Shown here: positions 19,925 through 22,791 of the stretch, piece by piece
How the letters are laid out: the number at the start of each line of letters is the position of its first letter
Position numbering within the stretch: position 1 is the stretch's first letter
IMG/VR virus record: IMGVR_UViG_3300022602_000421
Span: 1-24,133 of that record
Reading direction: 5' to 3' (one strand)
Origin: a virus
Length of the DNA: 24,133 nucleotides
The notes under the pieces: generated by a model
What the model saw: only the letters and a program-made list of their open reading frames with translations
Databases searched by the model: none
Told to the model about the DNA's origin: nothing
Made by a program: the position numbers and the translations under genes

Positions 19925-20119
19925 ATGCGTAAGTTGGTTATGATTTCTTTTGTTATGATTGGACTGACTGGTTGTGCTGAACGCGAACAAGTAGTGTTTG
20001 GTGATGTTCCTTTGCCACCAGAGCGTCCATATCATTTGGAAACTGTATGTGTGACAAAAGCTTTTCGTAACTATGAACACCAACTTAGATACGAAACAGT
20101 TTGTGGTCCAAAGAGATAA
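19925..20119 (+). CDS. Small lipoprotein between tRNA genes
   Basis: 64 residues. Basic start MRKL, a hydrophobic stretch VMISFVMIGLTG and the lipobox LTGC with Cys17, so a signal peptidase II substrate with a mature part of about 48 residues. The mature part has a proline-rich PLPPERP segment and two further cysteines (C42, C60). Size and proline content recall outer-membrane spanins (Rz1 type), but no inner-membrane spanin gene is adjacent, so this stays open. The start is 21 bases after tRNA-Pro; AAATAAATA just ahead resembles the late motif. Confidence 0.7.
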   Translation: MRKLVMISFVMIGLTGCAEREQVVFGDVPLPPERPYHLETVCVTKAFRNYEHQLRYETVCGPKR

Positions 20120-20126
20120 AGTTTAT

Positions 20127-20202
20127 TTCCCGATAGCTCAGTTGGTAGAGCAAGCGACTGTTAATCGCTTTGTCCTAGGTTCGAGTCCTAGTCGGGGAGC
20201 CA
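20127..20202 (+). tRNA. tRNA-Asn (anticodon GTT)
   Basis: Complete 76-base cloverleaf: acceptor TTCCCGA/TCGGGGA (one T-G pair), D arm GCTC/GAGC, anticodon stem AGCGA/TCGCT with loop CTGTTAA (anticodon GTT), T arm CTAGG-TTCGAGT-CCTAG, discriminator G and encoded CCA. Confidence 0.96.
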
Positions 20203-20213
20203 ATTATGTTGGT

Positions 20214-20351
20214 AACCAATTAACTGGGAAAGGTGCGTCGCCGCTGCCAGTTTAATTAGTAAGGCGAATACGGTTGCACTGGGTGGGGGTGTAACAAGAG
20301 ATTAAGCTCGGACGGAGAAAATAGTCTGAGTTAGCCCACCCCAAATTGGTT
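20214..20351 (+). ncRNA. Putative structured RNA after tRNA-Asn
   Basis: Gene-free stretch that folds by eye into a three-way junction with mutually compatible helices: P1 20214-20221 with 20344-20351 (eight perfect pairs), P2 20233-20236 with 20276-20279 continued by 20238-20242 with 20263-20267, P3 20281-20287 with 20335-20341 (seven perfect GC-rich pairs) and P4 20307-20313 with 20324-20330 (one G-T pair). An alternative hairpin 20218-20227 with 20247-20257 competes with P1 and P2. It lies 11 bases after the CCA of tRNA-Asn, so it is probably cotranscribed and separated by tRNA processing. T4 also has stable RNAs of unknown function in its tRNA cluster; homology is not claimed. Confidence 0.5.
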
Positions 20352-20356
20352 GGTCG

Positions 20357-20365
20357 CAATAAATA
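20357..20365 (+). promoter_or_regulatory. Late promoter-like motif (CAATAAATA)
   Basis: Matches the AATAAATA core of the other late motifs in this window and lies 54 bases before the oxygenase gene at 20419, directly after the structured RNA. Confidence 0.42.
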
Positions 20366-20372
20366 GACCCGC

Positions 20373-20412
20373 GAGGAGCCATGGTCAGCTCCTCACTTAA
20401 TTTCTTGTGAGG
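20373..20412 (+). promoter_or_regulatory. Alternative hairpins in the leader of the oxygenase gene
   Basis: Two helices share bases 20391-20394: hairpin A pairs 20373-20379 with 20388-20394 (seven perfect pairs), hairpin B pairs CCTCAC 20391-20396 with GTGAGG 20407-20412 (six perfect pairs). GTGAGG is the Shine-Dalgarno of the gene, so B would hide the ribosome site and A would free it. Confidence 0.42.
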
Positions 20413-20418
20413 TTTATG

Positions 20419-20997
20419 ATGGAAAAGTATTTAAAGCTTTGGGCAACACCGATTGCGATCTTTCAACATCCTGATTTCGAAAGAATCAATGCAGAGCTTT
20501 TATCTTATCCTGAGTTGCGCGGTATGAATTTTATGAACAAGAAAGATGCTTGGGATCTTGTTGATGAAATTCCTGCTATGAAAACACTTTATGATTGGAA
20601 ATTAGAGTGTGCAGCAAAGTATGCGACTGATTGTTTTGGTGTTGACTATAAACCAGAATACTTCTTTCATACGCATGGTTCTATAAACTTTCGTGGTCAT
20701 GGTGAAGAAGCTCCTCTTCACACTCATAGATTGACAACTATTGTGACGACATATTATATTGATGTTCATGATAATTGCGGCGATCTTCGTATTATTGATC
20801 CACGTAGTACTCTTGGTTGGATAAGTCTAGACAAAAAAGGATATAATCAATTCACCTATACTCCAAAAAATGGTGAGATGATTATGTTCCCTGGATGGGT
20901 TACTCATGCAGTACTACATAATAAGACAGACAAAGAAAGAGTAGCATTGACTTCTAATATGCGATTGGTTCGTGAAATAGAGGAAAATGTTTATTAA
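20419..20997 (+). CDS. Putative 2OG-Fe(II) oxygenase
   Basis: 192 residues. PLHTHRLTTIVTTYYIDV holds the HxH metal pair (H101, H103), and MIMFPGWVTHAV with DKERVALTSN gives the distal His163 and the 2OG-binding Arg174. This matches the TIGR02466-type oxygenases common in aquatic T4-like phages, with unknown substrates. Three start codons are clustered (GTG 20407, ATG 20416, ATG 20419); GTGAGG at 20407-20412 suits 20419 best by spacing. It sits between tRNA-Asn and tRNA-Thr and is related to the protein at 22795. Confidence 0.82.
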   Translation: MEKYLKLWATPIAIFQHPDFERINAELLSYPELRGMNFMNKKDAWDLVDEIPAMKTLYDWKLECAAKYATDCFGVDYKPEYFFHTHGSINFRGHGEEAPLHTHRLTTIVTTYYIDVHDNCGDLRIIDPRSTLGWISLDKKGYNQFTYTPKNGEMIMFPGWVTHAVLHNKTDKERVALTSNMRLVREIEENVY

Positions 20998-21004
20998 GAG
21001 TTTC

Positions 21005-21080
<76 letters not shown>

Positions 21081-21081
21081 T

Positions 21082-21273
21082 CGGGAGTGTTTGGATGGAA
21101 ACACCATACAGTAATCAGAGGTCATGCTCTGACTCCCGCCCAGTTTCGATGAGCAGCGTAGTTTGCACGGCTAGAAACACTGAGGTGTTCTAGCGAGGTC
21201 GGGAGAGATTGAATGGTCTCGTAACCTTGGTAACCCGAACGCTGAAAAGGATAGCGCTGTCCGTCCTCATCGA
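21082..21273 (+). ncRNA. Putative two-domain structured RNA after tRNA-Thr
   Basis: Begins two bases after the tRNA-Thr CCA; no gene is visible. Domain 1 (21082-21138): closing helix CGGGAGT/ACTCCCG (seven perfect pairs), hairpin GTTT/AAAC at 21089-21102 and hairpin TCAGAG/CTCTGA at 21115-21132. Domain 2 (21146-21273): closing helix TCGATGAG/CTCATCGA (eight perfect pairs) extended past an internal loop by CAGCG/CGCTG, enclosing GCTAGAA/TTCTAGC (21170-21194), TCGGG/CCCGA (21199-21203 with 21234-21238) and CGCT/AGCG (21240-21256). This many compatible long-range helices are unlikely by chance. No match to group I intron cores, RNase P or tmRNA signatures was seen. Confidence 0.55.
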
Positions 21274-21291
21274 TTATTAAGAAAGTTAGTC

Positions 21292-21462
21292 ATGACAGAT
21301 TATTTGTTGAATGATTTTAATCCAAATGATGAGACATTTAAGTCAGCATTTTGGGATTGGTTTGATAATCTTTCAAAAACAGAAAAGAAAAAGTTCTGGG
21401 ACTTCTCAGTTGACATGGCTATGATTTACTTCTACAATAAAATTTACCGACACAATAAATGA
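21292..21462 (+). CDS. 56-residue hypothetical protein
   Basis: MTDYLLNDFNPNDETFKSAF at the start, aromatic-rich middle (FWDWFDNLSKTEKKKFWDF) and end AMIYFYNKIYRHNK. Acidic N-terminus, basic C-terminus, probably helical. The ribosome site is weak (AAGAAAG). The stop overlaps the start of the dehydrogenase gene (ATGA), which itself has no ribosome site, so this small gene probably also serves for translational coupling. No family recognised. Confidence 0.6.
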   Translation: MTDYLLNDFNPNDETFKSAFWDWFDNLSKTEKKKFWDFSVDMAMIYFYNKIYRHNK

Positions 21463-22109
21463 CTTTAAATTTGAAAGTAGCAATTATAACTGGCGCCACA
21501 TCTTTGATGGCTGAAGAGACTTGCAAAAGGCTAGTCGGCTGGGATATTCATTTATGTAGCCGCAGTTATAATGGAGTTGATGTTACTGATTCAGAAAGCA
21601 TTAAAGAGTTTCTTTCATCAGTCAATAGAGTTGATGCTCTTATCAATATCGCTGGCGGTAAAAATGGAATCAGCAAGAATAAGTTTCTTGACATGACGCC
21701 AGACGAATTCAATAAGATTATGGATGTCAACTTCAACAGCGTTGTTAATATGACACGCGCATGCATACCCAAAATGCAAAATGGCGGATCAATCATTAGT
21801 ATTGTTTCGGCAGCAGCTTATACTGGGTTGCCTCGAATGTCAGCTTATTCTGCTGCCAAAGCTGCTGTTCTTGCCTTTACAAAAACAATAGCACAGGAAT
21901 ATGCCGAACAAAATATCCGCGCAAACTGTATTCTGCCTGGATACACTTTATCTAAACACGCTAAAGAAACACCGATAAACAAACTGACTTCGCTAGGTCC
22001 AACAAAGCCAGCCGATGTTGCTGATATGATCGAATTCTTACTATCGAATAAAGCATCCCATATAACTGGATCTTGTTTTGATATATCTGGCGGCGTAGCT
22101 CTCCATTAG
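21459..22109 (+). CDS. Short-chain dehydrogenase/reductase
   Basis: 216 residues, Rossmann fold. Start VAIITGATSLMAE in place of the usual TGxxxGIG, then NIAGG (the NNAG motif), NFNSVVNMTRA, catalytic Ser in ISIVSAAAY, YSAAK (Tyr and Lys of the active site), and the C-terminal ITGSCFDISGG that closes most members. The Ser-Tyr-Lys triad is complete, but two of the three glycines of the cofactor loop are replaced and the protein is shorter than the usual 250. Substrate unknown; a role in sugar or cell-surface metabolism is possible. It has no Shine-Dalgarno and is coupled to the small gene before it. Confidence 0.88.
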   Translation: MTLNLKVAIITGATSLMAEETCKRLVGWDIHLCSRSYNGVDVTDSESIKEFLSSVNRVDALINIAGGKNGISKNKFLDMTPDEFNKIMDVNFNSVVNMTRACIPKMQNGGSIISIVSAAAYTGLPRMSAYSAAKAAVLAFTKTIAQEYAEQNIRANCILPGYTLSKHAKETPINKLTSLGPTKPADVADMIEFLLSNKASHITGSCFDISGGVALH

Positions 22110-22146: not shown

Positions 22147-22791
22147 ATGCGGATAGCTTTGTTTCAAAATCATCCTGAATGCAGTCGTCAATGCTGCAAT
22201 GGAATGGTCAAAGCTTTAACTCCCCACTACGATGTTCGCATATTCGGTATTCATGATAGGTTAGAAGATGTTCTTGACAAATGTGATATTGTGGCTTTTC
22301 CTGGCGGCATCGGTGATGTTAGCACTTATGATAACTTTTTTCGTCGTAAATCTGCTAACAGAATTGCTGATTTCGTTGCTGGTGGTGGGAAATATCTTGG
22401 GATTTGTATGGGTGCTTATTGGGCTGGTCCACTTTATTTTGATATACTTCAAGATGTTACAGTAGAACAATACATCAAAAGACCAACAGCCGATATAAAA
22501 AGACCTTACGGAACTGTCGCTAAAGTTACATGGAAAGATCAAAAAGAGTTTATGTTCTTTTATGATGGCGGAGTTATGGTTGGCGATGAGTCGCAGTTCA
22601 AAACCATTTCTCGATACAAAAATGGTGAGCCGATGGCGATTATTCAGGGCAACGTTGGTATAATCGGTTGTCACCCCGAAAGCGAATCATACTGGTACAA
22701 CGATCCATATCAGTATATCAGCCAATATTGGCACCAAGGCAAACATCATAAACTGTTATTAGAATTTGTGAATGAATTAGTTGAAAGATGA
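22147..22791 (+). CDS. BPL_N / class I glutamine amidotransferase-like protein
   Basis: 214 residues. MRIALFQNH at the start, FPGGIGD (51-57), GGGKYLGICMGAYWAG with nucleophile Cys87, and GCHPESES with His176 and Glu178, completing a Cys-His-Glu triad. The pattern fits the N-terminal domain of eukaryotic-type biotin-protein ligases (BPL_N), a branch of the amidotransferase-like fold with unclear activity. No synthetase partner domain is attached. It lies in a late accessory operon after a dehydrogenase and before a 2OG oxygenase, with four bases to the latter. Confidence 0.8.
   Translation: MRIALFQNHPECSRQCCNGMVKALTPHYDVRIFGIHDRLEDVLDKCDIVAFPGGIGDVSTYDNFFRRKSANRIADFVAGGGKYLGICMGAYWAGPLYFDILQDVTVEQYIKRPTADIKRPYGTVAKVTWKDQKEFMFFYDGGVMVGDESQFKTISRYKNGEPMAIIQGNVGIIGCHPESESYWYNDPYQYISQYWHQGKHHKLLLEFVNELVER

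Follow-up and report, generated by a model that had tools for sequence, protein, structure and literature searches.

A small phage RNA family, found in tRNA arrays and elsewhere, with a conserved core and a predicted self-pairing loop

GOLLD and ROOL are structured RNAs of phages and prophages that lie beside tRNA islands and assemble into RNA-only homo-multimers through kissing loops, and their function is unknown (PMC12286853). Palindromes that switch in symmetric loops were the argument used for the RNA-only multimers of OLE and GOLLD, and the OLE RNA forms a dimer, the palindrome of its symmetric loop differing between species (PMC12286853). Here we describe a 128-nt RNA in the window, which is the whole 24,133-nt stretch of virus DNA that was analysed. 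Full-length members of its family are about 122-202 nt long, whereas GOLLD and ROOL measure about 660 to more than 800 nt and have other sequences and folds. The covariance models of GOLLD and ROOL gave no match in the window or in the members (cmscan, gathering score and E up to 10). The 128-nt RNA resembles OLE in having a changing palindrome in a symmetric loop, but OLE is bacterial, larger and unrelated in sequence, and had no Rfam match here. The HIV-type dimer initiation hairpin carries a six-base loop palindrome with a few flanking extra bases within the viral genomic RNA; the loop palindrome is alike, but the sequence and the surrounding fold are not common to the 128-nt RNA. The stable T4 RNAs rnaC and rnaD are alike in their size (119-139 nt), in their position directly 3' of a tRNA and in belonging to a T4-type tRNA cluster.

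The window belongs to a 24-kb virus record with T4-type genes, including those of the major head protein, a helicase, an SbcC-like subunit and a clamp loader. ARAGORN annotated three tRNAs (tRNA-Pro, tRNA-Asn and tRNA-Thr) towards the window end. The genes flanking the tRNAs are located at 20407-20997, 21459-22109 and 22147-22791, and their products include a 2OG-Fe(II) oxygenase and a FabG-like reductase; the third of these genes had no PHROG match and, in our own reading, looks like a glutamine amidotransferase. The stretch 21082-21273 contains no convincing gene, as the preliminary description of this DNA had stated. The features are listed in Table 1.

Table 1. Features of the 128-nt RNA and its surroundings in the window
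Feature	Position	Strand	Evidence or remark
tRNA-Thr (UGU), CCA encoded	21005..21080	+	ARAGORN; Rfam RF00005 68.3 bits
Separate tRNA-like element	21082..21142	+	Sequence, fold; stand-alone copy in L211 (13107-13172), 95.5% identical
Conserved 128-nt RNA, whole element	21146..21273	+	R2 103.6 bits, E 5.1e-21; R1 123.4 bits
P1	21146..21153 TCGATGAG / 21266..21273 CTCATCGA	+	8/8 pairs covary, 97.3% paired
P2	21154..21159 CAGCGT / 21239..21244 ACGCTG	+	6/6 pairs covary, 99-100% paired
P3 hairpin GCTAGAA...TTCTAGC	21170..21194	+	7/7 pairs covary, 83% paired
Conserved strand 1 CGAGGTCGGGAG	21194..21205	+	GAGGTCGGG nearly invariant in alignment A3
P4 hairpin GAGA...TCTC	21205..21220	+	4/4 pairs covary, 97.6% paired
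Conserved strand 2 GTAACCTTGGTAACCCG	21221..21237	+	Nearly invariant in A3, also outside pattern-fixed positions
P5 hairpin GGA-TAGCGCTG-TCC, loop palindrome AGCGCT 21253-21258	21249..21262	+	Stem covaries; proposed kissing-loop homodimer site

The preliminary description treated 21082-21273 as one RNA with two domains. Both of the closing helices it named are present: the first (CGGGAGT 21082-21088 / ACTCCCG 21132-21138) has seven perfect pairs across 43 bases, and the second, P1, has eight perfect pairs across 112 bases. The unity of the stretch did not hold. In L211, a syntenic relative on a 34-kb contig, the 5' and 3' elements are about 520 bp apart with tRNAs in between. The first 66 bases stand alone there after a tRNA-Asn and are followed by the next tRNA, and the part belonging to the 128-nt family comes downstream after a different tRNA. 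Because they are apart in L211, 21082-21142 and 21146-21273 are two separate RNAs, which happen to lie side by side in the window. The folding energy was only mildly unusual (z -2.2; 3 of 200 shuffles folded equally well). Energy alone is a weak signal, and the proof of structure is comparative, drawn from aligned sequences.

The first relative was found in L078, a weak BLAST match among loci retrieved for a neighbouring gene, which has the same letters 3' of a tRNA-Leu. Members were collected by IMG/VR pattern scans and with the covariance model R1, of which the window is a seed member; L101 was added by identity. In IMG/VR the family is present in 50 contigs and comprises about 36 distinct sequences; of 84,980 prokaryote genomes, two carry it. 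The copy in Rhizobium sp. AC27/96 sits inside a prophage that has genes for terminase, portal and DnaB. One copy lies in a 518-kb contig, directly 3' of a tRNA-Asn, and each of the six whole records carries a single copy. A second model, R2, was based on eight sequences that excluded the window, L211 and L117, and it recovered both the window and L211 (the scores of the window are given in Table 1). BLAST searches of 50,697 cultured-phage records with the copies of the window, L111, L118, L134 and L150 gave chance matches only. A 22-nt match in a Vibrio phage was read and rejected as a member, and a pattern match in L123 was rejected as a coding stretch (E 1.2). No family match was found in 84 other phage loci, many of them with tRNA arrays, and no member in 50 control loci.

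The stretch had been placed outside known RNA families, and this was confirmed: searches of Rfam 15 (4227 families), with the gathering cutoff and with E values of up to 10 allowed, covered 20100-21300 of the window and 12 member loci and assigned no family to the stretch or to the family members. A search of the open-licence literature with the core letters returned no relevant paper. The parallel with T4 remains positional, as first proposed. With filters off, the best R1 score was 7.4 bits elsewhere in the T4 stretch, R2 gave no match, and the conserved strands were absent from rnaC and rnaD when their sequences were read.

The alignment of 32 members showed that the relatives preserve the pairings, the point on which the preliminary description had staked its structural claim. 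Standard pairs make up 94.1% of the paired cells (63.4% when shuffled), and for each of the 28 pairs both partners differ between some of the members. The covariation score was 0.824, compared with 0.215 for shuffled columns (0 of 500) and at most 0.155 with the partners slid; these values come from alignment A3, which was fitted to the model and so favours the structure. Mismatch-type cells comprised 66 G-U and 9 A-C. This large excess of G-U over A-C identifies the + strand of the window as that of the RNA. P1 closes the structure, P2 is a helix inside it, and P3 and P4 form side hairpins; P4 is absent from L151 and L158.

The core consists of two nearly invariant strands between the helices, CGAGGTCGGG and GTAACCTTGGNAACCCG. 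About 30 positions, mostly outside helices and lying between variable side hairpins, are nearly invariant, and this conservation is partly imposed because the search patterns required parts of both strands. The TT of conserved strand 2 is constant though one search pattern did not demand it. A pseudoknot of GAGGT/ACCTT with CGGG/CCCG is possible on paper; its zero-base linker makes both helices together unlikely, and covariation cannot test it because its columns are nearly invariant.

In most members, P5 has a stem of three pairs and a loop of eight bases, the inner six of which form a palindrome. Of the 36 members with a readable loop, 35 have a perfect 6-nt palindrome there. Nine palindromes were found, namely AGCGCT (window), ATGCAT, GTCGAC, TGCGCA, CTGCAG, TGGCCA, GTGCAC, GGCGCC and TCTAGA. 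Nine of the 10 distinct hexamers are palindromic; 20,000 column shuffles gave 0.35 on average and never more than 4. The loop stays self-complementary despite its changing sequence, as a palindromic kissing loop should. The inner four loop bases cannot pair within one molecule. As neighbouring loop bases are unable to pair intramolecularly, their self-complementarity points to pairing between two molecules, and the changing but preserved palindrome suggests a symmetric kissing-loop homodimer. Dimerisation may not be universal in the family: L151 has an imperfect palindrome, L148 (outside the 36) has none or an unclear one, and L114, L116 and L122 (also outside the 36) lack a 6-nt palindrome, their P5 loops being T-loop-like. 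The last three are divergent, and their core seems to be set in a tRNA-like frame with a T-arm-like hairpin; a D-arm-like hairpin is present in L114 and L122. These three members may show how the family arose.

The position of the RNA suggests how it could be produced. P1 lies 2-6 nt downstream of a tRNA CCA in 13 members from tRNA arrays, the preceding tRNA being tRNA-Leu, Ala, Ile, Val, Asn, Met or Gly, and the next tRNA often begins 8-13 nt past the end of P1. All 146 tRNAs within 2 kb of family copies are on the strand of the RNA. As P1 lies just past the CCA of several different tRNAs, the RNA is probably released by tRNA-processing enzymes in tRNA arrays. The proposal that tRNA processing sets the 5' end is therefore probably right; in the window, the 128-nt RNA sits 3 nt past the tRNA-like element and not directly past tRNA-Thr. 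The start just after a tRNA CCA does hold for the first helix, although the gap is one base and not two (the CCA ends at 21080). The family loci share no neighbouring gene, and the copies outside tRNA arrays have varied neighbours; the 128-nt RNA is therefore not a cis-regulator. A clear promoter directly upstream was seen only in L129 and L142, which are copies outside tRNA arrays. In L112 and L129, an initiator-like tRNA with a CAT anticodon lies within 7-12 nt downstream of the RNA, and in L211 the family RNA is 3 nt past a Met tRNA.

We consider it probable, at about 0.7, that 21146-21273 encodes a phage RNA that stands alone, acts in trans and belongs to a new family, and that this RNA is dimeric, with an invariant core that meets a widely conserved partner. 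In tRNA arrays it would be co-transcribed with the tRNAs and excised by the enzymes of tRNA 3'- and 5'-end processing. The P5 loops of two copies would afterwards pair by way of their six-base palindromes and so give a symmetric dimer, and the invariant strands would form a compact core, a fixed surface for a partner common to very different bacteria. The dimer is well supported by the comparison of members, although as a prediction. The partner would most likely be a component of the machinery of translation or of tRNAs, which is remodelled by phages that carry tRNA arrays; this choice is a guess. We give somewhat less than an even chance to a reading in which the RNA is the first described of a class of small self-dimerising phage RNAs, matured by tRNA processing, in phages of unrelated bacteria, with the core acting as an RNA-only device that is catalytic or binds a ligand or the ribosome.

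Other explanations were weighed against the trans-acting dimer. The RNA might be a tRNA mimic or decoy in which P1 and P5 stack like an acceptor and a T arm and occupy tRNA enzymes or host defence nucleases. P5 does lie at the T-arm position of a tRNA, the RNA is found among tRNAs with a tRNA-like element adjoining it in the window, and the T-loop-like loops of the three divergent members, with the D-arm-like hairpin of two of them, fit this idea. However, the tRNA and tmRNA test with ARAGORN and RF00005 found nothing in 21146-21273, CCA is absent after P1 and there is no anticodon arm. The conserved bases are in the core and not in the tRNA-like part, and most members lack the T-loop letters, so mimicry appears rather unlikely. 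Catalytic and ligand-binding cores usually look like these nearly invariant and mostly unpaired positions, and P4 is dispensable; this would suit a monomer that uses its invariant strands as a self-cleaving ribozyme or as a pocket for a small molecule, with the P5 palindrome serving another purpose. Such a monomer is an unlikely explanation, as no ribozyme or riboswitch family of Rfam 15 matched the 128-nt RNA even at E 10, and the nine different palindromes are left unexplained; for a riboswitch, the position between tRNAs with no gene behind it also counts against it.

It is highly improbable that the feature acts as DNA, as an origin, recombination or packaging site whose palindrome is read by a dimeric protein. 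The single copy per record and the 6-bp palindrome, which is a symmetric DNA site too, would agree with this, but the excess of G-U over A-C and the orientation relative to the tRNAs (146 to 0) speak for RNA; moreover, five helices covary, and a DNA-binding protein needs no ever-changing palindrome. Chance folding or a decayed gene, to which the modest energy z-score would lend itself, can be practically dismissed: both are refuted by the covariation in 32 members and by the recovery of left-out sequences with R2, and the lack of matches in the other phage and control loci speaks against them too.

Relative to Rfam 15 and the open-licence papers, the 128-nt family, its core and its switching six-base palindrome are new. 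Self-assembling RNAs of phages in the vicinity of tRNAs have precedents as a theme, and the newness lies at the level of the RNA family; an earlier description could exist outside Rfam and the open-licence papers. The family adds an RNA class without an Rfam match that is present in phage contigs of up to 518 kb and in at least one prophage. That single strands stay nearly invariant in phages this diverse points to a partner, or a chemistry, that many bacteria share. Homodimerisation can be tested directly by way of the changing palindrome, and at about 128 nt the RNA is more tractable than the much larger GOLLD and ROOL. The family also bears on the role of the stable RNAs in phage tRNA clusters.

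The neighbouring element at 21082-21142 was called a tRNA by none of the tools, and its likeness to a tRNA is our own reading of its letters. Its closing helix would be a 7-bp acceptor-like stem; it further has a D-arm-like hairpin, a T-arm-like hairpin (CAGAG-GTCATG-CTCTG) and a 3' end of C plus CCA (21139-21142), and the anticodon arm is absent. It may be a decoy, a processing substrate or a remnant. More unannotated tRNA-like or hairpin RNAs were seen among the tRNAs at 12900-13700 of L211; examples are GCTGTCT...AGACAGCACCA and a helix of 13 bp, GTGATGTGTCTGG...CCAGACACATCAC.

The region after tRNA-Asn in the window (20203-20400; folding z -2.0) was rejected as a member of the 128-nt family. 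Its first part, the roughly 140 bases from tRNA-Asn to the stretch at 20347 (20203-20346), folds well too, with helices such as GGGTGGG/CCCACCC, and relatives were found only for its 3' end. A second conserved stretch 3' of tRNA-Asn at 20347-20393 (GGTCGCAATAAATAGACCCGCGAGGAGCCATGGTCAGCTCCTCAC) is also present in L211/L255, L117, L147 and L233. It forms two hairpins, both preserved despite sequence changes, and is possibly another RNA family of these tRNA arrays.
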